Part shown: piece by piece, positions 2,410 to 58,196 of the stretch | Layout: the number at the start of each line of letters is the position of its first letter | Numbering within the stretch: position 1 is the stretch's first letter | Notes under the pieces: model-generated | What the model was told of the DNA's origin: nothing | What the model saw: the letters and a program-made list of their open reading frames with translations, nothing else | The model's database searches: none | Assembly (NCBI RefSeq): GCF_030271515.1 | Contig: NZ_JASCXI010000001.1 | Location: 310,001-374,000 of the forward strand | Source of the DNA: Erythrobacter oryzae | GTDB taxonomy: Bacteria > Pseudomonadota > Alphaproteobacteria > Sphingomonadales > Sphingomonadaceae | Direction: 5' to 3' | Length of the DNA: 64,000 nt | Translations under genes and position numbers: made by a program

Positions 2410-2690
2410 TGCAGGTCACCTCTGTCCTTGCGATCTACTTCCTGTTCTGGGTGATGAGCGCCTTCATCATGCTCCCCTTCGGCGTGCGCACCGCGGACGA
2501 GGCGGGGGTCGAGAAGGTCCCGGGACAGGCCGACAGCGCGCCGGTCAACTTCCGTCCCGGCAGGCTGGCGCTGCGGGCGACCGTGATCGCCGCGGTGCTC
2601 ACCGCGCTGTTCATTGCCAACTTCACCTATGGCTGGATCACCGCGGCGGACATCGACTTCCTGCCCAAGCCGCCGAGCGCCGCCAGCTAG
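2409..2690 (+). CDS. DUF1467 family small inner-membrane protein
   Basis: A 93-residue protein of unknown function. It has two predicted membrane helices (about residues 4-22 and 56-78) joined by a short loop with the LPFGVRTADE segment typical of DUF1467 proteins. Its ATG overlaps the RNase J stop as TGATG, so the two are probably translationally coupled; this pairing is frequent in alphaproteobacteria, but no functional link is established. It converges on the coiled-coil gene, overlapping its 3' end by 4 bp. Confidence 0.85.
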   Translation: MQVTSVLAIYFLFWVMSAFIMLPFGVRTADEAGVEKVPGQADSAPVNFRPGRLALRATVIAAVLTALFIANFTYGWITAADIDFLPKPPSAAS

Positions 2691-5218
2691 CGCAAGCGCT
2701 GGATCGCCTGGGCGAGCGCCACATAGAGCTTGCCCATGTCCGAACCCAGCATCGTGACGCTCAGCACATGCCCGTCGCGGGTCGAGAGCGTCTGTCGCAG
2801 CAGCGCCTCGAAATCGTGGATGTAGCGGCCGACATTGGCCTTGAAGGCTTCGTCCGAGGTGTAGAGCGCGGCGACATCGCGCGCGCTGCCGTTGTCGAGC
2901 AGCTTGACCGCGCGGCGGGTGAAGATCCCGCGGTCGCCCTTGAGATAGGCGTCCCACGCGGTGTCGGTGACCTCGCTCGACAACGCCCCGGCGATGTCGA
3001 TCGCGGCCGAATTGAGTGCATCGGTGATCAGCGCCATGCGCCGCGTGAAGTCGTTGTTGACCTGCTCCTCGGCCAGTTCGCGCGCACGGGTGACGCGCTG
3101 TTCGAGGTTGCCGGTGAGCTCGTTGACCTTGACCAGCTGGTCGCGCAGCTGGATCGCCGCCTCGCGCCCGACGCCCGAGGCATGGGCGGCGGACTGCTCG
3201 AGCGCGCCGATGGTCGCCGCCGTTTCGTTGCGCAAGGCGCGTTCGAGCGCTTCGACCGCCTCGCTGCCGAGCTGGCCCGCCAGCGCCAGCATCCGTTCGC
3301 GCGCGCCTTCATCCAGCGTCGCGAAGGCGCCGGTGATCGCCGCTTCGAGCGCGGCGAGGTTCTCGCGCAAGGCGTCCTGCGTCTCCTGCGCCAGCGCGCC
3401 GCTTTCCTCGGCGAGCCGGGCAAAGCCGCCGCGCAGGCCTTGCAGGCGCGCGAGCACGTCCTCGGTCTCCTCGGCAAGGCGCGACTTGAAGCCGGCAATG
3501 GCTACTTCGGCGGCGTCGATCCCGTCGCGGGTCTGCACGAGGTAATCGGCAAGGTCGCTCCCCGCCTCCTTGCTGCGCAGCATCAGCGCGGCGACCTTAT
3601 CGGCGCGTGCCTCGACCGTCTCGAGCGCGGAACTGGCCCCGCCGATTGCGCCGGAAAGGTCCTCGCGGCAAGTGCGCGCGCCCGATTGCAGGATTTCGAG
3701 CAGGCGTACCGAGCTGTCGGTCAGGTGTGCCATCTGCGCGTCGGTCGCGGCCAGCACCGCGCGCTTTTCCTCGAGCTGGCGGGTGACGTTATCGAGCGCA
3801 GCCCCTAGACTGGTCCGCGCTTCCTCGCCCGCAGCGCCCGCTTCGCCGACCACGCGGGCCAGCATCGTCGCCCGCTCGGTCATGGCCTCGCCCTGCGCGA
3901 CCAGCTTCTCGATCTCCGCCAACTGCGCTTCGCGCGCCTGCGAGAGGGCATCGTCGAGCGCGGCCAGCCGCTGGGCGAGCACTTCGCCGGCCTGCGCCTC
4001 GCGCGTCTCGAAGGCGGCCTGGCGCTGCTCGATCAGCTCGTCGAAGCTGCGGTTGCGCGCTTCGAGGTGTTCGTCGAAGCGCACCGCTTCGTCGCGCAGC
4101 TGGGCGATGCGCTGCGATGCCGCGGTGCTGGTGCTGCGGTCGAGCTCGTCGACGAGGCGCAGCTTTTCGAGCATCGCGTCGTGCAGCCCCTTGATGGTGG
4201 CGGCAAAGCGGGCCTCGGCCTCTTCTGCTGCTTCGCGAAGGCGCGCGGCGGTGCTGTCGGCCTCGCTCGCGGCAGTGCCTGCGCGCTCGCGCAGCGCGGC
4301 CATCGCCTCTTCCTCGAGCGCGCCGACTGCCGCGCGGTAGCTCTCCGCCTCGGTCTGGAGCGCCGCAAAACGCTGCGTGACCAGCGCGTCGATCCGCGTG
4401 ATCTGGCCCTCGAACCCGGCGAGCGTGGTGCCCACCGTCTCGCCCAGCCGCGCAACCTGCTCCTCGCTCGCGGTGCCGGCGGTGGTGATCCGTTCGAACC
4501 CGCCCGCAAGCTTTGCGAGCTGCTCCTCGGCGGTGCGCCCGGCGCTGCCGATCTGGTTGGTCACGTCGCGCGCGGCATTGGCGATCACCGGCAGATCGTC
4601 ACGCAGCCGGTTCATGTTGCCGAGCGCGGTTTCGCTGGTGGTGGCGATGGTCTCGACCTCGGCGCCGTTATTGCGGATCAGCGCCTGCAATTCCCCCGCA
4701 TGGGTCGAGAGCCGCTCGGCCGCGATGCGCCCCAGCGCTTCGAGATCGCGCGCCTCGGCGGCGAGGAATTCGCGTGCGAGGCTGAGTTCGCGGTTCACGA
4801 CCTTCAATCGCGCTTCCAGCGCCGCGCTCTCGCGGTTCATCGCCGCAGCGGTGGCGGCAAAGCGCTGCGCCTCGGCGTGCGAGGAGCGCATCGCAAGCAA
4901 GTAGAGCACACCCACCAGCGCGACCGGCACGGCCCACATCACCACCCATTGTGCCCACTGCGCGGGGGCAGGGCCGGCCTGCATGGCGGCGAGATGGGCC
5001 CAGACGAAGAACCCGCTCCATCCCGCCACCGCCAGAACCGCCAGAAATGGCGCCGCCTTCGCGAGCAGCGAGGGGCGGGGGGCGGCAAAGGCCTCCTCGC
5101 CATCCGCTTCGGCCACCCAGCTGTCCGACAATTCGAGTGCATCCGCGCCGGCCTCTGCCTCGGGAAGCGTGGTCTCGCCCGCGTCGTCGCCGCCGCTCTT
5201 GCGCCCCAAGGCGCGCAT
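2687..5218 (-). CDS. Membrane-anchored long coiled-coil protein, function unknown
   Basis: 843 residues from the chosen ATG at 5218, which has AGGA nine bases upstream. An earlier in-frame ATG at 5236 has its AGGGG only one base away and is less likely. The N-terminus is acidic (about 1-50), followed by two membrane helices (about 52-75 and 90-110), then about 570 residues rich in Ala, Glu, Arg and Leu with heptad character, and a compact C-terminal region (about 700-843) ending in GSDMGKLYVALAQAIQRL. This suggests an inner-membrane anchor with a long cytoplasmic rod and a C-terminal head. I recognise no catalytic motif. It is divergent from the Hpt-like gene. RmuC-like or chemoreceptor-like proteins are alternatives, but neither signature is present. 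Confidence 0.8.
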   Translation of the reverse strand: MRALGRKSGGDDAGETTLPEAEAGADALELSDSWVAEADGEEAFAAPRPSLLAKAAPFLAVLAVAGWSGFFVWAHLAAMQAGPAPAQWAQWVVMWAVPVALVGVLYLLAMRSSHAEAQRFAATAAAMNRESAALEARLKVVNRELSLAREFLAAEARDLEALGRIAAERLSTHAGELQALIRNNGAEVETIATTSETALGNMNRLRDDLPVIANAARDVTNQIGSAGRTAEEQLAKLAGGFERITTAGTASEEQVARLGETVGTTLAGFEGQITRIDALVTQRFAALQTEAESYRAAVGALEEEAMAALRERAGTAASEADSTAARLREAAEEAEARFAATIKGLHDAMLEKLRLVDELDRSTSTAASQRIAQLRDEAVRFDEHLEARNRSFDELIEQRQAAFETREAQAGEVLAQRLAALDDALSQAREAQLAEIEKLVAQGEAMTERATMLARVVGEAGAAGEEARTSLGAALDNVTRQLEEKRAVLAATDAQMAHLTDSSVRLLEILQSGARTCREDLSGAIGGASSALETVEARADKVAALMLRSKEAGSDLADYLVQTRDGIDAAEVAIAGFKSRLAEETEDVLARLQGLRGGFARLAEESGALAQETQDALRENLAALEAAITGAFATLDEGARERMLALAGQLGSEAVEALERALRNETAATIGALEQSAAHASGVGREAAIQLRDQLVKVNELTGNLEQRVTRARELAEEQVNNDFTRRMALITDALNSAAIDIAGALSSEVTDTAWDAYLKGDRGIFTRRAVKLLDNGSARDVAALYTSDEAFKANVGRYIHDFEALLRQTLSTRDGHVLSVTMLGSDMGKLYVALAQAIQRLR

Positions 5219-5303
5219 TTCGTGCCGTCCTGCCATGCCCCTGCATACCACAGCGCGAGTCGGGATAAACCCCGCTTTAACCAATCCGGACTATTCCCGA
5301 GGC

Positions 5304-5630
5304 ATGGCGTTCAATCACGGAGCTCTCGATGCGACCCTGGCGGCGGCGGCCGGCGATGATGCCGCGCTGCTGCGCGAGCTGCGGAGCGCTTTCGTCGAAA
5401 GCGCGACCAAGCAGCTCGACCTGCTCAAGCGCGCGCGCTGCGACGGCAACTGGCATGTCGCGGCGATGCGGCTTAAGGGCCTCGCGGCCAGCTTCCACGC
5501 CGAAGACCTGCTCCAGGCCGCCGAAATCGCGCTCCACGCCGCGCCGGGCGAGCCGATGGCGATCCGCGAGGTCGAGGCGGTGATCACCCGCTTCGCGCGC
5601 ACCCGCACCCCCGATCCCAACCGCATCTGA
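5304..5630 (+). CDS. Hpt-like domain protein lacking the phospho-histidine
   Basis: 108 residues from the ATG at 5304, helical throughout. The pattern GNWHVAAMRLKGLAASFHA aligns with the Hpt consensus in which A-H-x-L-K-G carries the phosphorylated His; here that position is Met55 (A-M-R-L-K-G). His51, one helical turn earlier, is the only nearby histidine. The flanking LKG core and the preceding GDDAALLRELRSAFVES segment are Hpt-like. If it is an Hpt relative it cannot relay phosphate in the usual way and may instead bind a response regulator or kinase. It is divergent from the coiled-coil gene and upstream of the 5.7-9.3 kb genes. The gene is well supported; the family assignment is moderately sure. 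Confidence 0.72.
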   Translation: MAFNHGALDATLAAAAGDDAALLRELRSAFVESATKQLDLLKRARCDGNWHVAAMRLKGLAASFHAEDLLQAAEIALHAAPGEPMAIREVEAVITRFARTRTPDPNRI

Positions 5631-5746
5631 CCTGCGCCGCGGTGTGCCGCCCTGTGCTTGGGGGCAAATCGCGCGCCCGCGCTTGAACCACGCGGCGTAA
5701 GCCGCCAATCCTCCTGCCCTATGCCGGGACGGGAGACACAAGCGCC

Positions 5747-6955
5747 ATGCGCATCGGCCTGATTGCCGCGCTGCGCCACAGCGAGGAGGGCGCGCTGCGC
5801 GCCGCGCTCCCGCTGGCGGGACGCAGCGTAATCGCGTGGCAGGCGGCGCTGCTCAAGGGGCTGGAGGTCGAGCGGGTGCTGTGCCTCGCCGAAACGCCGG
5901 GCGGGACGGTGCTCGAATTGCAGCACATGCTCGAAAGCGAGGGCGTGCAGTTCCACGCGCTGCGGGGCCTTTCCGCGATCCCCGCGCTGGTGCGGGCCGA
6001 GGATGATCTGGTGATCCTCGCCGACGGGCTGGTGCCCGATCCGGCGGTGGTGCGGGCGCTTGTCGGAGGGGAGGCGGAAGCGCCCCTCCAGCGGATGGTC
6101 GCGACGATCCCCGCCGACCACCCGCTCGCCGCCGCACACCCCGAGGATTTCGAGCGCATCGATGCGCAGCGCCACTGGGGCGGGGTGCTGGTGATGCGCG
6201 GCGCGCCGGCGCAGCGCCTCGCCGAGTTTCCCGCCGATGCCGACGCGGTCTCGCTGCTGCTGCGGCTCGCGCTGCAATCGGGCACCCCGACCCGCGAGCT
6301 CGCCGCGCGCGAGCTGGTGCCCGAGACCTGGCTGCTCGCCGACAGCGACGCCGCCACGCAGCGCCACGAGAGCGCACTGATCGCCGCCGCCGCGCCGCCT
6401 GCCGACTGGCGCGCGCCGGGGATCGCGTTGGCAGGCGCTGCGGTGCGGGCGGCGATGCCGCGTGGCCTCGAACAGGGGCCGCTGATCGCTGGCGGGGCGG
6501 CGCTGGTGCTGCTGCTCGGCGGGGTGATGGCGGCGGCCTTCGGCTTTGGCGCGAGCGGGCTGGCGCTGGCGGCGACGGGCGTGTTCGGCGCGCAGGTATC
6601 GCATGGTTTCGCCGCCCTCGGCGCGAAGCTGCGCCGCGAGGGCGGGGCGGGGACCGGCACCCCGGCCAGAGTTCTGACCGCTCTGTGCGACCTGCTTGCA
6701 GGTGTCACCCTGTGGTTCGGCCTTGCGCCCTTTCCCGAAGTCCAGCCGCTCGCCGTGCTCGGCCCGGTCGCCTACGCGCTGGCCCGGATTGCCGCGCGCG
6801 GGGGCGACAGCGCGCTGGCCGCTGCCGCCTCCGACCGCGCGAGCCTGCTGCTGGTCCTCGCCCTCGCTGCCGCCTTCGGGCTGCTGCCACACGCGCTCGC
6901 CTGTCTCGCCTTGGGGCTATGCGCAGCTTTGCTGCTGCGCGGGGCCAAGGAATAA
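5747..6955 (+). CDS. Nucleotidyltransferase-like protein with C-terminal membrane region
   Basis: 402 residues. The N-terminal half (about 1-230) looks like a Rossmann-type sugar-nucleotide or MobA-like transferase fold: an opening hydrophobic strand MRIGLIAAL, and the strand VRAEDDLVILADGLVPDP at the usual place of the acidic metal site. The C-terminal part (about 245-400) has four to five hydrophobic segments that look membrane-spanning. NTP-transferases fused to CDP-alcohol phosphatidyltransferases are known, but I do not see the DG-x2-AR signature of the latter, so the membrane part is either degenerate or different. Substrate unknown. It lies 116 bp after the Hpt-like gene. Confidence 0.7.
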   Translation: MRIGLIAALRHSEEGALRAALPLAGRSVIAWQAALLKGLEVERVLCLAETPGGTVLELQHMLESEGVQFHALRGLSAIPALVRAEDDLVILADGLVPDPAVVRALVGGEAEAPLQRMVATIPADHPLAAAHPEDFERIDAQRHWGGVLVMRGAPAQRLAEFPADADAVSLLLRLALQSGTPTRELAARELVPETWLLADSDAATQRHESALIAAAAPPADWRAPGIALAGAAVRAAMPRGLEQGPLIAGGAALVLLLGGVMAAAFGFGASGLALAATGVFGAQVSHGFAALGAKLRREGGAGTGTPARVLTALCDLLAGVTLWFGLAPFPEVQPLAVLGPVAYALARIAARGGDSALAAAASDRASLLLVLALAAAFGLLPHALACLALGLCAALLLRGAKE

Positions 6956-6998
6956 TCTAACCCGTCCTTAACTATAGGGGCACTAAGCCCGAAGGACG

Positions 6999-7934
6999 AT
7001 GCGCGAAGAGACGATGGACCATGCCGCCGACGATGCAGTCGAGGCGATCCTGCGCGGCGGGCTCGCGCGCGAGGCCCGCGCGCTGACGGCGGTCGTCCCG
7101 GTGCTGCGTCACCTGCTGGGCTCGGAAGCGCAGGGCCTTGTCAGCGAGGCGATCCTCGCGCGGGTGCGCGGCATGATCCTCGATATCGCCGCACAATTGC
7201 TGGCCGCACAGGCCGGGCGCGATCCGGCGGCGCGTGCGGCGGGCGGCGATCCGGCTGCGCTCGATGCGCTCGCCGAGGCGCTGATGGGCGAGGAGGCGCT
7301 GCTCGCCCACTGCCACGCGCTCGCGACCGAGAGCCTCGTCGCCGACCGCTTGCAGCAGCGCCACGCCATCGATCCGGTGCTGAGCCCGCTGCTCCAGGAA
7401 TTGATCGCCGCCGAGGACACCGCGGTGGCCGCGCTGGCGATGACGACGCTCGCCGCACAGTCGCGCTTCGTTCAGAGCCAGCGGCGGATGGAGCTGCCCT
7501 TGGGCGAGCTTCCGGCCGAACTGTTCCACACCCTGCTGGCCCGCGCGCTCGATGGCGCAGGCGACACTGCGGGCCTCGCGCGGCTTCAGGCGGGTTATGA
7601 CGAGGCCACCTCGCGCCTCGGGCTGCTGGCGCGGCTTGTCGCGGCGATGCGGCGCGGGGCGGTGGCGGCGCTTGCGCTGGAGCATGCGGGCCTTGCGCTC
7701 TTCGCCTCGGCGCTGGCGAGCGAAACCCGTGCCCCGCGCGGCGAGGCGGTGCTTGCGGTGCAGGAAGGGCAGGGCCTGCGGCTCGCCCTGCTGCTGCGCG
7801 CGGCAGGCCAGTCTGCCCCCGCGATCGAGCGCCAGCTGGTGCTCGCCGAGCCCGCCGCACAGTTGCCGCCCGCGATTGGCGCGCTCGCTCCGGCCCGCGC
7901 CGCCGCGCTCATCGCTGCGGGCCGGACGGCGTGA
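6999..7934 (+). CDS. Alpha-helical protein, possibly DUF2336-like
   Basis: 311 residues, almost entirely predicted helix, Ala/Leu-rich, without membrane segments. A recognisable stretch is the conserved-looking core around QRRMELPLGELPAELFH (about residue 160). DUF2336 proteins are helical-repeat proteins found near alphaproteobacterial signalling genes; the resemblance is by pattern only and I hold it loosely. The stop TGA overlaps the ATG of the kinase-like gene (TGATG), so the two products are probably made in fixed ratio. The sequence supports no enzymatic function. Confidence 0.65.
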   Translation: MREETMDHAADDAVEAILRGGLAREARALTAVVPVLRHLLGSEAQGLVSEAILARVRGMILDIAAQLLAAQAGRDPAARAAGGDPAALDALAEALMGEEALLAHCHALATESLVADRLQQRHAIDPVLSPLLQELIAAEDTAVAALAMTTLAAQSRFVQSQRRMELPLGELPAELFHTLLARALDGAGDTAGLARLQAGYDEATSRLGLLARLVAAMRRGAVAALALEHAGLALFASALASETRAPRGEAVLAVQEGQGLRLALLLRAAGQSAPAIERQLVLAEPAAQLPPAIGALAPARAAALIAAGRTA

Positions 7935-9340
7935 TGAACATGGTCGACCCCGCCGACACGCTGGTGGGCGCCTATGGCCTCACCGATGCGCAGGGCCGGC
8001 TGCTGAGCGCCGACGCGCCGCTCGCCGAGCTGCAGGAGCGCTGCGGCGGCGATCTGCCCGGCATGCTCGCCATCCCCGAACTGCTCGCGCTGGTGCGCCA
8101 GGCGCGGGGGCTTGGCCTCAGGATCGCGCGCAGTTTCTCCGCCTTCGACGGCGACGCCGAAGTCTCGGGCTTCGCGCGCATCCACCCCTTGGGCGAGGAT
8201 GACGGCGGCGGGTGCGAGGTGCTGGTCGAGAACTGGCAGAGGAGCCCCCTGACCCCGCCCTCGGCACGCGAATTCGCCGAGCGCATCGACGCGATCGACC
8301 GCGCCACCGCCGAGGTCAGCGCCCGGCTCGATGCGCGTCAGCGGCTCCAGGTGCTAAGCGCCCGCGCCCCCGATGCCGTCGTGCTCGAGGCTGCCGCGCT
8401 GGCCGCGCCGGGCACCTTGTGGAGCGAGCTGGTCGAACTCACCGACATCACCCACCACCAGCCGCTCCACTGGCGCCTGCTCGACGGCGCGGCGTGCCGC
8501 ATCGCGGGCTCGGCGCGCAGCTGGCGGGTGCGGCTCATCCCGCTCGGGGCCGACGTGCAGAACCCCTCGGGCTTCGAGCTGCTGCTGATCGCCGACGAAC
8601 CCCTCGTCCAAACCGCTCCCGAAGGCGCAGCCGAGGGCCCCCTCGAAACCTCGCCCGCCCGGCTCGTCGGCACCGCGCTCACGCCGGTGCTGCGTCAGCC
8701 GGTGCAGCGCATCATCGCCAATGCCGAGACCATGCGCGCGCGCCTCGCGGGGCCCCTGCGCGACGAATACAGCGAATATGCCGGCACCATCGCCAGCGCC
8801 GGGCAGCACCTTGCCGCGATGCTCGACGATCTCGCCGATCTCGAGGTGGTCGAGACCCCGGGCTTTGCCACCGCCAAGGAACCCGTCGATCTCGCCGACG
8901 CCGCCCAGCGGGCCGCGGGCATCCTCGGCGTGCGCGCGCACAACCGCGACACCGCGCTGGTGGTCGAGGGCGAGCGCGGCGCGGCGGTCGCCAGCGCCGA
9001 GTTCCGGCGGGTGCTGCAGATCCTCATCAATCTGGTCGGCAACGCCATCGCCTATGCTCCGGCGGCGAGCACGGTGACGATCAGCGCCTTACCGCTGGCT
9101 GATGGCCGGGTGGCCGTGTCGGTCGCCGACGAGGGGCCGGGCGTCTCGCCCGAGCAGGCCGCGCGGATCTTCGACAAGTTCGAGCGCCTCGGCCGCGACA
9201 GCGACGGGGGCAAGGACAAGGGCAGCGGCCTCGGCCTCTACATCTCGCGCCGCCTTGCCGAGGCGATGGAGGGGACGCTGACCGTGGGAAGCGCGCCAAG
9301 CGGGGGCGCCTTGTTCACGCTGGAACTGCCCGCCGCCTGA
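7934..9340 (+). CDS. Histidine-kinase-like protein with Pro at the phospho-acceptor site
   Basis: 468 residues from the ATG that overlaps the upstream stop; a GTG at 7931 is an alternative start. The N-terminal 240 residues form a soluble PAS-like or unclassified sensor region with no clear membrane helix. The dimerisation helix reads TPVLRQPVQRIIANAE, which aligns with the usual H-E-L-R-T-P-L motif but has Pro251 in place of the phospho-acceptor His. The ATP-binding domain looks intact: N-box Asn370 (LVGNA), DEGPG from residue 399, GSGLGL near 430. It may bind ATP without autophosphorylating, or phosphorylate another protein. No receiver domain or response regulator is adjacent. Confidence 0.85.
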   Translation: MNMVDPADTLVGAYGLTDAQGRLLSADAPLAELQERCGGDLPGMLAIPELLALVRQARGLGLRIARSFSAFDGDAEVSGFARIHPLGEDDGGGCEVLVENWQRSPLTPPSAREFAERIDAIDRATAEVSARLDARQRLQVLSARAPDAVVLEAAALAAPGTLWSELVELTDITHHQPLHWRLLDGAACRIAGSARSWRVRLIPLGADVQNPSGFELLLIADEPLVQTAPEGAAEGPLETSPARLVGTALTPVLRQPVQRIIANAETMRARLAGPLRDEYSEYAGTIASAGQHLAAMLDDLADLEVVETPGFATAKEPVDLADAAQRAAGILGVRAHNRDTALVVEGERGAAVASAEFRRVLQILINLVGNAIAYAPAASTVTISALPLADGRVAVSVADEGPGVSPEQAARIFDKFERLGRDSDGGKDKGSGLGLYISRRLAEAMEGTLTVGSAPSGGALFTLELPAA

Positions 9341-9346
9341 TTGCGG

Positions 9347-9541
9347 TCAGCCGCGGCGAAGCCATCGCGGAAGCCCGATCAGGATCGCACCCGCCAACAC
9401 CATCGCGCTGCCCCGAAACACCCATTCCCGCTCGCCGAGCATGAAGCTGTCCGCAGGCCAGTGCAGCAGGCCGAGGCCTTGCAGGGCCCAGATACAACCG
9501 AGGGCGACAAGGAACATCCCTGCCGCCCTCAGCATAAGCAT
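9347..9541 (-). CDS. Small two-helix membrane protein
   Basis: 64 residues with two hydrophobic helices (about 5-24 and 42-60) joined by a short loop containing WPADSFMLGEREWVF. The arrangement of Gly and Trp around the first helix (LGCIWALQGLGLLHWP) recalls a small membrane protein widely seen in Sphingomonadales, of unknown role. ATG at 9541 and ATG at 9535 are both possible starts. It converges on the kinase-like gene (6 bp between stops) and lies 3' of gltA. Confidence 0.65.
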   Translation of the reverse strand: MLMLRAAGMFLVALGCIWALQGLGLLHWPADSFMLGEREWVFRGSAMVLAGAILIGLPRWLRRG

Positions 9542-9555
9542 TTTGCGTCAGCCGC

Positions 9556-10842
9556 TTAGCGCTTGTCGAGCGGGATGTAGTCGCGCTCCGTGGGCCCGGT
9601 GTAGAGCTGGCGCGGACGCCCGATCTTCTGGCCGGGATCCGAGATCATCTCGTTCCACTGCGCCACCCAGCCCACGGTGCGCGCCAGCGCGAAGAGCGCG
9701 GTGAACATCGTGGTCGGGAAGCCGATCGCCGAGAGGATGATGCCCGAATAGAAGTCGACATTCGGGAACAGCTTCTTCTCGATGAAATAGGGATCGTTGA
9801 GCGCGATCTCTTCCAGCTGCAGCGCTGTCTCGAACAGCGGGTCGGTGACCTTGAGGCTCTCGAACACCTCGCGCACGGTCTTCTGCATGACGGTCGCGCG
9901 GGGGTCGTAGTTCTTGTAGACGCGGTGGCCAAAGCCCATCAGGCGGAAGGGATCGTTCTTGTCCTTGGCGCGCTCGATATAGTGCGGGATGCGATCGGGC
10001 GTGCCGATCTCGCGCAGCATGTTGAGCGCGGCCTCGTTCGCCCCGCCATGCGCCGGGCCCCACAGGCAGGCGATGCCCGCCGCGATGCAGGCGAAGGGGT
10101 TCGCGCCCGAGGAGCCTGCCAGACGCACGGTCGAGGTCGATGCGTTCTGCTCGTGGTCGGCGTGGAGGATGAAGATGCGGTCCAGCGCGCGCTCGACCAC
10201 CGGGTTCACCACATAGGGCTCGGCCGGGACGCCGAAGGTCATGCGCAGGAAGTTGCCGGTGTAGCTCAGCGAGTTGTCCGGATAGACGAAGGGCTGGCCG
10301 ACCGAATACTTGTAGGCCATCGCCGCGATCGTCGGCATCTTGGCGATCAGCCGGTGCGAGGCGATCATGCGCTGCTGCGGATCGGAGATGTCGGTGCTGT
10401 CGTGGTAGAAGGCCGAGAGCGCGCCGACCACGCCGCACATCACCGCCATCGGGTGCGCGTCGCGGCGGAACCCGCGGTAGAAGGTCATCAGCTGCTCGTG
10501 CAGCATGGTGTGGCGGGTGATGGTGTAGGTGAAGTCCGCGAGTTCCTGCTGGCTCGGCAGTTCGCCGTTCAAGAGCAGGTAGCTGACTTCCATGAAGCTC
10601 GAATCCTCGGCCAGCTGACCGATCGGATAGCCGCGGTGGAGCAGCACGCCCTCGTCACCGTCGATATAGGTGAGCGCGCTCTCGCAGCTCGCGGTCGAGG
10701 TGAAGCCCGGGTCGAAGGTGAAGGCACCCGTCTGCGCATAGAGCTTGCGGATGTCGATCACGTCGGGGCCGGTGCTGCCCGCGAGCACGGGATATTCGTG
10801 CGTCTGGCCGCCGAATTCGAGTTTCGCCGTCTTGTCTGCCAA
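9556..10842 (-). CDS. gltA: Citrate synthase
   Basis: Condenses acetyl-CoA and oxaloacetate, the entry step of the TCA cycle. 428 residues, as for type II (hexameric) bacterial enzymes. The catalytic elements are visible: HADHEQN (substrate His), [10 protein letters not shown] (catalytic His) and [13 protein letters not shown] with the Asp. I chose the TTG at 10842 because AGGAG lies seven bases upstream and the resulting N-terminus (ADKTAKLEF) matches relatives; there is no ATG near. A GC-rich stem-loop with a 4-nt loop sits at 10870-10883 between gltX and gltA and may attenuate readthrough. gltX-gltA is a common alphaproteobacterial pair. Confidence 0.96.
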
Positions 10843-10905
10843 GATCTGTCTCCTGTCCAAATTTTACTTCCGGCCCCCGCCGGTCGCCCTGTTTCAGGCT
10901 AAGTC

Positions 10906-55964: not shown

Positions 55965-58196
55965 ATGGCGCAATCCCCACCCCGGCCCCCGCGTCCCGCC
56001 CTGCGCCAGCCCCCGCGCTGGTGGCGCAAGCTGTTGCTCGCCGGGCGCCGCGTGAACCTCTTTGCATGGCTCGAAGGGCTGGCGGTGACCGCGCTGGTGG
56101 CGGCGATTATCGCGGCTTGGACGACCTATGGCCGCACTGCCGCTTCCGACGATCTGCTGCCGACCATGCAGGTCTCGGTCCTGCTGATGGCGACGCTGGT
56201 GCCGGCGATGGCGCTGCTGGTGCTGATCGGCCGCCGCCTCGCGCTGCGCCGCGCGGCGGGCTCGACGGCGCGGCTGCATGTGCGTCTGGTGTTCTTCTTC
56301 TCGATGGTTGCCGCGCTGCCGACGCTGCTGGTCGCGGGGTTTGCCGCCTTCCTGTTCCAGACGGGGGTCGACTTCTGGTTCTCCGACGAATCGCGCGGGC
56401 TGATGGAGAACGCCAACGCGCTGGCGCAGAACTATTACGACGCCAACCAGCGCGACGTCGAACAGAACTCGGTCACCATGGCGACCGACCTGCGCGACAC
56501 GCTGGCGCGGGTGCCGATCACCGATCCCGACTTCCCCGATTTCTACGCCTATCAGGCGCAGGGCCGCGAGATCTCGGAAAGCGCCGTGCTCCAGCGCATG
56601 CCCGACGGATCATTCCGCACCGCAGCCGCACTCAACCTCACCAAGGACAACAACCCGCTTGCCTTCAGCCGCGCGGCGCTCCCCCAGCTCGACAAGGGCG
56701 CGCTTGCCGTGGTGGTCGGCAGCCCCGAGCGGATCGAGGCGCTGGTCCCGATCGACGCGCAGACCGGCGTTTACCTCTACAATGCCCGCACCACCGAAGA
56801 GACGATGTTCAAATCGTGGTCCAAGGCGCAGTCGATCGTCACCGCCTATGACCGGCTGACGGGGAGCGCGCGCACGCTCCAGCTTCGCTTCAATATCGCG
56901 CTGGTGGGGGTGAGCCTGCTGCTGGTGGGCCTCGCGATCTGGTTCGCGCTGCGCTTTGCCGACCGGCAGGTTGAGCCGCTCACCGACCTCGTCGGCGCGG
57001 CGCGCAAGGTGGGGCAGGGCAACTTCGCGCTTCGCCTCGAAGGCCGCACCGGGGCGGACGAGATCGGGCTTTTGAACCGCGCCTTCAACCGCATGACCGC
57101 GCAGCTCGAAAAGCAGACCCAGGCCCTCGTCAGCGCCAACCGCCAGATCGACGACCGCCGCGCCTTCACCGAGGCGGTGCTCGAATCGGTCACCGCCGGG
57201 GTGGTCTCGGTCGATGCCGAGGCCCGGGTGACGCTGATGAACTCCTCGGCACAGGCGCTACTGGCGCATGACGGGTTGCCCGCCGACCTCATCGGCCAGT
57301 CGCTGGAGGCGCTCGCCCCCGAACTCGCCCGCATCCTCGCCGAGGGCAAGGAGCGCGCCATCGTCACCCACGCCAAGGGCACCGACCTGTTGACGCTCGC
57401 GGTCAAGGTGGCGCCCGGCACGGATGAAGGTCACGTGATCACCTTCGAGGACATCACCCGCCAGCTGCTCGACCAGCGCCAGGCCGCCTGGTCCGATGTC
57501 GCCCGCCGCATCGCGCACGAGATCAAGAACCCGCTTACTCCGATCCAGCTCGCCACCGAGCGGTTGAAGCGCCGCTACCGCAAGCAGGTGACCGACGAGG
57601 ATCGCGAGCTGTTCGACGACCTCACCAACACCATCGTCCGGCAGGTCGGCGACCTCAGGACAATGGTCGACGAATTCTCCAGCTTCGCGCGCCTGCCCAA
57701 ACCGGTGTTCCGCGACGAGGACGCATTGGATCTGGTCCGGCAGGCGGTGTTCCTTCAGGAAGTCGCGCATTCGGGCATCGCCTTCTCGGTCGCCTCCTCT
57801 GAGCTCATCGACCGCGAGATCCGCTGCGACCGTCATCAGTTCGGTCAGGCGATGACCAACGTCCTAAAGAACGCGGTCGAAGCCGTCGAGGCGCGCGCGG
57901 CCGAGGCCAAGGGCGCCTACGCGGGCGAGATCGCCGTCACGATGAAGGACGCCGGCGAGGCGATCATCGTCACCATCGAGGACAACGGCGTCGGCCTTCC
58001 GGCCAATCCCGAGCGCCTCACCCAGCCCTATGTCACCACCCGCGAGAAGGGCACCGGCCTCGGCCTCGCCATCGTCAACAAGATCGTCGACGAGCATGGC
58101 GGCGACATGAGCTTCGCCAGCGCGGCGAGCGGCGGCACCCGCGTCTCCCTCAGCTTCGCGCGCAATCCCAACCCAATTGAGGGCGACGGCGCATGA
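55965..58196 (+). CDS. ntrY: Membrane sensor kinase NtrY
   Basis: 743 residues from the ATG at 55965. Three or four N-terminal membrane helices (about 28-120), a periplasmic region, a further helix near 310-330, HAMP (FADRQVEPLTDLVGAARKV), PAS (AVLESVTAGVVSVDAEARVTLMN), phospho-acceptor His518 in RRIAHEIKNPLTPIQLATERL, N-box VLKNAVEAV, DNGVGLP and GTGLGLAIVNKIV. Partner of NtrX; the pair senses redox or envelope state in several alphaproteobacteria. 94 bp after ntrC, 46 bp before ntrX. Confidence 0.96.
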   Translation: MAQSPPRPPRPALRQPPRWWRKLLLAGRRVNLFAWLEGLAVTALVAAIIAAWTTYGRTAASDDLLPTMQVSVLLMATLVPAMALLVLIGRRLALRRAAGSTARLHVRLVFFFSMVAALPTLLVAGFAAFLFQTGVDFWFSDESRGLMENANALAQNYYDANQRDVEQNSVTMATDLRDTLARVPITDPDFPDFYAYQAQGREISESAVLQRMPDGSFRTAAALNLTKDNNPLAFSRAALPQLDKGALAVVVGSPERIEALVPIDAQTGVYLYNARTTEETMFKSWSKAQSIVTAYDRLTGSARTLQLRFNIALVGVSLLLVGLAIWFALRFADRQVEPLTDLVGAARKVGQGNFALRLEGRTGADEIGLLNRAFNRMTAQLEKQTQALVSANRQIDDRRAFTEAVLESVTAGVVSVDAEARVTLMNSSAQALLAHDGLPADLIGQSLEALAPELARILAEGKERAIVTHAKGTDLLTLAVKVAPGTDEGHVITFEDITRQLLDQRQAAWSDVARRIAHEIKNPLTPIQLATERLKRRYRKQVTDEDRELFDDLTNTIVRQVGDLRTMVDEFSSFARLPKPVFRDEDALDLVRQAVFLQEVAHSGIAFSVASSELIDREIRCDRHQFGQAMTNVLKNAVEAVEARAAEAKGAYAGEIAVTMKDAGEAIIVTIEDNGVGLPANPERLTQPYVTTREKGTGLGLAIVNKIVDEHGGDMSFASAASGGTRVSLSFARNPNPIEGDGA

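Follow-up and report, generated by a model that had tools for sequence, protein, structure and literature searches.

Genes at the locus

The window, by which we mean the whole stretch of 64,000 nucleotides of Erythrobacter oryzae DNA that was analysed, contains at 7934-9340 on the plus strand a gene for a double-PAS protein of 468 residues that resembles a histidine kinase and includes ...TALTPVLRQPVQRIIANAE.... Translation is assumed to start at the ATG at 7934; an in-frame GTG at 7931 is also possible. Upstream, on the same strand, lie three genes at 5304-5630, 5747-6955 and 6999-7934.

The nearest of these (6999-7934, plus strand, 311 residues) overlaps the kinase gene by a single base: its stop codon and the ATG at 7934 share one nucleotide (GTGATG at 7931-7936), which fits the co-translation proposed in the original prediction. 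The product was also described there as helical, and structure prediction indeed gives an all-helical protein with a pLDDT of 88.5 and a pTM of 0.87. Foldseek against the PDB returns 117 matches at E<=10 but none at E<=0.001, and a profile search of the PDB has no match at E<=1. DUF2336 is seen in one of 21 members of the family (L077) at 20.0 bits, against a cut-off of 34.6, and is a very weak link. At 20 of 27 distant loci a same-strand, stop-to-stop reading frame of 300-410 codons ends at most 120 bases from the expected kinase start, and at the other seven there is no such frame; as the DNA is GC-rich, these frames are weak evidence for an upstream partner gene.

The conserved neighbour at 5747-6955 (plus strand, 402 residues) has an N-terminal part that is weakly nucleotidyltransferase-like and a hydrophobic C-terminal part. 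Two of seven scanned members of its family match NTP_transf_3 below the cut-off (E 6e-4 and 2e-3), while the member in the window has no Pfam match. The gene at 5304-5630 encodes an HPt-like protein that is treated separately below. Divergently from this group, at 2687-5284 on the minus strand, lies a gene whose product has hydrophobic stretches near the N-terminus and a long helical, coiled-coil-like tail; the frames tried have no Pfam match, and a likeness to the polar protein TipN is a guess of ours.

Downstream of the kinase gene and on the opposite strand we find gltA (9556-10860, Pfam Citrate_synt), followed by a gene of the glutamyl-tRNA-synthetase type. Among the neighbouring reading frames scanned with Pfam none contains a receiver domain, in line with the earlier remark that no response regulator stands beside the kinase. 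A scan of 5100-9700 for promoters and terminators yields no terminator and a single promoter-like site (minus strand, 9569-9540), and thus neither supports nor opposes a single transcript. Far from this locus, a second kinase-like stretch is seen at 57579-58151 on the plus strand (weak match, E 7.5e-4) in an open frame of 818 amino acids.

Domain structure

We modelled the protein with AlphaFold2 from an alignment of 38 orthologues; the model (mean pLDDT 82.7, pTM 0.44) has two PAS-like folds followed by a long helical hairpin and a CA domain. All domains are encoded on the plus strand. From the secondary structure of the model the first PAS-like domain covers residues 9-105 (7958-8248), and the second is modelled at residues 128-220 (8315-8593). 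The DHp-like hairpin, delimited by the model and a HisKA match, covers residues 241-307 (8654-8854), and the HATPase_c ATP-binding (CA) domain residues 316-467 (8879-9334). The model confidence is high for the PAS and CA domains and modest for residues 241-310, where the pLDDT is about 56-76.

With Pfam, HATPase_c is found at residues 358-467 with an E-value of 1.1e-27. HisKA scores 26.7 bits, slightly below its cut-off of 26.9, and the match starts at residue 253, directly past the lost start of the H-box. No PAS match is obtained for the protein of the window; among the 38 aligned orthologues PAS_4 is found in seven and PAS_9 in five, and in a Sphingomonas orthologue (L079) Pfam PAS covers residues 115-216 (E 3.4e-4).

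The codon at 8684-8686 encodes Pro251, which aligns with the phosphorylated histidine of canonical relatives (SHELRTPL), and Val252 aligns with the glutamate that follows it. The position of Pro251 had been predicted from the window alone and is borne out by this comparison. The same is true for the intact ATP site: the translated gene contains N366/N370, D399-E-G-P-G403 and G430-S-G-L-G-L435, so that the N, G1, F and G2 motifs are kept.

When the model is searched with Foldseek the top match is WalK, an ordinary kinase. NifL from the NifL-NifA complex (9qq6) is found at rank 6 (E 4.9e-16, 16% identity) and DivL (4q20) at rank 26 (E 5.2e-14), and many ordinary kinases are present among the matches. 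The WalK match, the pTM of the model and its modest confidence in the hairpin count against the binding-based reading given below.

Distribution and loss of the phospho-acceptor histidine

At E<=1e-40 the gene is found in 97 of 100 genomes of the genus, including all 81 of good quality; the three genomes without it are 70-72% complete. Our sample of the order comprises 197 genomes, 136 (counted by hand) from the GTDB family of the window and 61 from other families. Within the family 123 of the 136 genomes yield a match over the full length at E<1e-90; in three others a shorter match is found at the equivalent site next to gltA and gltX, giving 126 of 136; a clear orthologue is absent from the remaining 10. 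None of the 61 genomes from the other families has a full-length match, and their best matches, over the kinase core, have E-values of 1.1e-65 or weaker. Further, of the 387 genomes of the class that were searched no more than six have a match at E<=1e-70, and all of these belong to the same family. Named carriers of an orthologue include Erythrobacter/Porphyrobacter, Novosphingobium, Sphingomonas, Sphingorhabdus and Sphingobium. These names suggest that the GTDB family corresponds to Sphingomonadaceae in a broad sense. One locus (L095), from a record titled Microvirga sp. SRT01, clusters with the Sphingomonas-type orthologues, and the name is probably wrong.

A strain-specific mutation or a sequencing error is ruled out by these orthologues. 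The broader idea that the gene is mutated, misread or decaying retains next to no probability, given the number of genomes that carry it and a dN/dS far below 1 (0.12-0.20 by NG86 in five pairs), which shows purifying selection.

The acceptor site was compared in 100 distinct orthologues. From 93 matching loci we left out two other kinases (L099 and L105) and one partial sequence (L078); merging identical proteins reduced the 90 loci to 73 rows, including the gene of the window. To these we added 27 rows that were chosen mainly as the lowest-scoring orthologues and not at random. Among the first 73 rows the acceptor position is Pro in 52, Arg in 8, Lys in 5, Ser and Gln in 2 each, and Ile, Ala, Asp and Thr in one each, and never His. 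The 27 low-scoring rows have Asp and Pro in 7 each, Arg in 3, Ala and Gly in 2 each, single cases of Thr, Gln, Asn, Glu and Ser, and one His. Taken together the 100 orthologues have P59, R11, D8, K5, S3, Q3, A3, T2, G2, I1, N1, E1 and H1, with no Tyr.

The residue after the acceptor position is Val, Ala, Thr, Leu, Ile, Ser or Gly in all 100 orthologues, and Glu or Asp in none. The sole orthologue with His (L132, genome G650) has Ser next to it within a decayed H-box, IDHSFKPSI, and its His is likely a chance return at a free position. Pro is the most frequent letter in Erythrobacter and Novosphingobium. In the Sphingomonas-type orthologues the site is Arg, Lys, Ser, Gln, Asp, Thr and others, so that the conserved feature is the lack of His and not the presence of Pro. 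A functional role of Pro itself is ruled out by this variation. The description as Pro in place of His was too narrow: the loss of His holds in 99 of 100 orthologues, the proline in 59. The reading as a pseudokinase is strengthened, as His is lost throughout the family, the adjoining acidic residue is gone in every orthologue and the ATP-site motifs are kept. Orthologues with His, which would have spoken against it, amount to the one decayed case.

The rest of the hairpin and the ATP site are well conserved. L253 is kept in 95, R254 in 94, P256 in 99, I260 in 98 and A264 in all 100 orthologues. N366, N370, D399, G401, G432 and G434 are present in every orthologue, G403 in 99 and G430 in 96. 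Mean column entropy is 1.42 and 1.14 bits in the two hairpin helices and 1.38 in the CA domain, and higher in the PAS domains (1.79 and 2.21). The basic residue of the N-box, at position 373, is Lys in 13 of 13 canonical relatives and Arg in all 21 Sphingomonas-type rows, and it is Ala in 45 of 47 rows of the Erythrobacter group. This is a later, second loss in the Erythrobacter branch, and the handling of the nucleotide may thus differ in this group.

The HPt-like neighbour

The product of 5304-5630 (plus strand, 108 residues) contains ...NWHVAAMRLKGLAASF..., in which Met replaces the His of an HPt motif; the codon for Met55, at the phospho-His position, lies at 5466-5468 in the motif AAMRLKG. 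The original prediction mentioned this product solely as a candidate for two-hybrid tests and overlooked its HPt-like nature and its lost His. The relation to HPt domains is seen at the level of the family. Against Pfam Hpt (PF01627) 16 of 26 members match at E<=1, the best at 2.6e-6, and of four members scanned singly three are above the cut-off, while the member in the window has no match at E<=1. When the PDB is searched with a profile of the family no HPt chain is found; the best match, at E 0.042, is an exopolyphosphatase.

Among 98 distinct sequences of this family (57 + 30 + 15 after merging) the phospho-His site is Met in 55, Leu in 19, Trp in 8, Ala in 5, Thr and Ser in 4 each, Gln and Arg in one each and a gap in one, and His in none. 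Nine matches outside these 98 have Trp (three), Gln (two), Leu, Tyr and Ala, and one is partial. Five HPts of weak similarity from related genomes (E 2.6e-9 to 1.7e-7) all have His, and these may represent paralogues and not the ancestral state. A weak HPt match in genome G524 (L215) keeps its His. Around the lost His of the family R56, S63 and F64 are invariant and L57 and L60-A62 nearly so, a pattern that would be expected if binding to a receiver were retained. The dN/dS of the gene is 0.05-0.16.

A homologue of 5304-5630 is found by tblastn at 56 of 113 loci; at the 55 of these where the kinase could be placed, the homologue lies some 2.0-3.6 kb upstream of the kinase gene. In the 136 genomes of the family the pseudokinase is present in 126, the HPt-like gene in 90 and both in 89, a co-occurrence with a Fisher p-value of 2.4e-4 that is uncorrected for kinship. 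The two genes are at most 6 kb apart in 71 of the 89 genomes that have both and unlinked in 18. Further, 37 of the 126 genomes with a pseudokinase have no detected HPt-like gene, and one genome has the HPt-like gene alone. The pair is common but not obligatory, and the unlinked and kinase-only genomes indicate that the two proteins need not work together. In genomes with the genus code g271 (e.g. L124-L129, L131 and L140-L142) the profile finds no HPt-like gene at the locus; these genomes retain the pseudokinase, the homologue of 5747-6955 and gltA.

That two proteins lacking their His share one widespread, conserved gene block suggests a working, non-catalytic module rather than decay.

Origin and relation to DivL

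All 13 of the nearest canonical kinases retain His-Glu. They come from the order: 12 belong to sister families, and the remaining one to a family genome without a pseudokinase orthologue. In the family genome G524 (L143) there is no pseudokinase at the usual place, and a canonical His-Glu relative lies elsewhere.

From 69 rows of the kinase core, among them 34 of the 100 orthologues, we built a quick maximum-likelihood tree with the H-box columns left in. The 34 pseudokinases form one clade (SH-aLRT 99). It is nearest to the 13 canonical kinases (joining branch 84) and apart from 13 DivL-like rows of the Tyr type (78). The placement of these 34 pseudokinases as a single clade beside canonical kinases makes one loss of His, on the stem of the family, the most likely course, although the AU result given below tells against it.

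DivL of Caulobacter is a His-less kinase homologue as well, and shares with our protein the order PAS, DHp, CA; the pseudokinase could then be the form that DivL takes in this family. By an AU test a tree that joins the two in one clade is not significantly worse (p 0.11, lnL difference 25.95, H-box columns included). However, a search with the DivL core finds a separate Tyr-type protein (SYE[LF]RTPL) in all eight family genomes searched, that of the window included, and seven of the eight have the pseudokinase too. The pseudokinase is accordingly not simply their DivL. In the genome of the window the Tyr-type, DivL-like protein (L184, G000:C1:655500-660500) is a 788-codon open frame, FLANMSYEFRTPL, so that two His-less kinases exist there. 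The DivL core has five matches in this genome, of which the pseudokinase scores lowest; the best is a His-type hybrid kinase and the Tyr-type protein is second. On the strength of the separate Tyr-type protein we reject orthology with DivL as highly improbable. The tree also sets the pseudokinases nearer to canonical kinases than to the Tyr-type rows, with the AU result as a caveat.

Possible mode of action

His and the adjoining Glu are lost, while the ATP site, the docking face of the hairpin and the tandem PAS domains are kept, which is the pattern of conformational signalling. Together with the parallels to DivL and NifL this pattern favours, over the alternatives considered here, a pseudokinase that binds nucleotide and controls a receiver and/or the helical protein through direct contact; we put the probability of this reading at roughly 0.6. 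The tandem PAS domains would receive a cytoplasmic signal and the CA domain would bind ATP or ADP. The dimerisation hairpin would be unable to accept a phosphate at the usual place, and its conformation, which would depend on the states of the PAS domains and the CA domain, would control a partner through direct binding. The likeliest partners would be a receiver domain encoded elsewhere, suggested by the kept docking face, and/or the co-translated helical protein. Nucleotide binding, dimerisation, the binding partners and the signal are all properties that we infer.

By an ungapped match of the H-boxes R254, present in 94 of 100 orthologues, corresponds to R553 of DivL. According to an excerpt of PMC4211667 R553 is required for binding phospho-DivK. 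DivL binds an ATP analogue only weakly, and as its fold is similar, a kept fold need not mean that ATP is sensed.

The HPt-like protein may belong to the same system. Lacking its His, it would be an adaptor or a decoy that binds the receiver contacted by the pseudokinase, or a related one, and signalling by the pair probably relies on binding and not on phosphorylation. It is conceivable, if tentative, that the two are what is left of a gutted phosphorelay that works as a binding switch, in which pseudokinase and pseudo-HPt read the state of a receiver and the ATP/ADP pool and the helical protein is the output. That both proteins were stripped of their His before the family diversified, as this would imply, is equally tentative.

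Several other activities have to be weighed against a pseudokinase acting by binding. In a heterodimer with another kinase, the CA domain might phosphorylate the partner's His. Its motifs are kept in 96-100 of the 100 orthologues, and as the partner would supply His and Glu, the loss of both does not exclude such a trans-kinase. We nevertheless regard it as unlikely: 45 of 47 rows of the Erythrobacter group lack the basic N-box residue, the conserved gene block encodes no partner kinase, and DivL and NifL are described as having no kinase activity. Phosphorylation of the protein's own hairpin at another residue would above all involve His292 of the second helix, which is present in 97 of 100 orthologues. 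However, all 13 canonical relatives carry this His in addition to the normal phospho-His, and it is thus an inherited residue and not a replacement; as an alternative site we consider it very unlikely.

HisKA phosphatases have Thr or Asn four residues after the His. In our family this position is Gln in 58, Ala in 11, Ser in 8, Thr in 8 and Gly in 5 of the 100 orthologues, with other residues in the rest and Asn in none, which argues against a phosphatase of response regulators that has no kinase activity. Such a function would not strictly need the His, as an excerpt of PMC12632262 states for the phosphatase activity of HisKA proteins, but we find it improbable here. A pseudokinase that acts through direct binding is therefore our preferred explanation.

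Comparison with known systems

One close parallel is NifL of Azotobacter, as both proteins have tandem PAS domains, an H-domain or hairpin and a GHKL domain. NifL signals through protein-protein contact with NifA and not by phosphorylation, according to an excerpt of PMC8063818. The similarity is one of fold, at 16% identity, and there are clear differences: Azotobacter NifL keeps its His motif while the pseudokinase has lost the His, and beside the pseudokinase we find no NifA-type activator but the HPt-like, hydrophobic and helical proteins and gltA.

DivL is, like the pseudokinase, a HisKA-type protein with PAS domains that has lost the His and kept the docking Arg. It has Tyr at the site followed by Glu, whereas the pseudokinases have lost this Glu as well, and their acceptor site varies. 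For the host group, an excerpt of PMC2877005 describes the CckA-ChpT-CtrA relay as present and the DivJ-PleC-DivK branch as degenerate. A further Caulobacter protein, the kinase CCNA_03265 of the HmrABCX region, is reported to lack the conserved His in an excerpt of PMC11481889. It is a hybrid kinase with a receiver, unlike the pseudokinase.

Pseudo-histidine kinases are a known kind of protein, reportedly reviewed by Collins and Childers in 2021. Pseudo-HPts are known from plants, where AHP6 inhibits a relay; the 5304-5630 family differs from these in being bacterial and in lying in a gene block with a pseudokinase. In one survey His-less domains make up about 0.9% of HisKA (722 of 76,471) and about 0.9% of Hpt domains (90 of 10,312) (PMC12632262). 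In the open-access literature that we searched we found no description of the pseudokinase family, and as far as this search goes no conserved bacterial block that combines a pseudokinase with a pseudo-HPt has been described.

The block is conserved in nearly all Erythrobacter genomes sampled and in many other genera. With canonical relatives in sister families for comparison, it offers a tractable system for studying how pseudokinases and pseudo-HPts signal. If the two proteins do form a gutted phosphorelay, they would be, to our knowledge, the first such bacterial pair, a counterpart of the plant pseudo-HPt decoys joined to a sensor of the NifL or DivL type.
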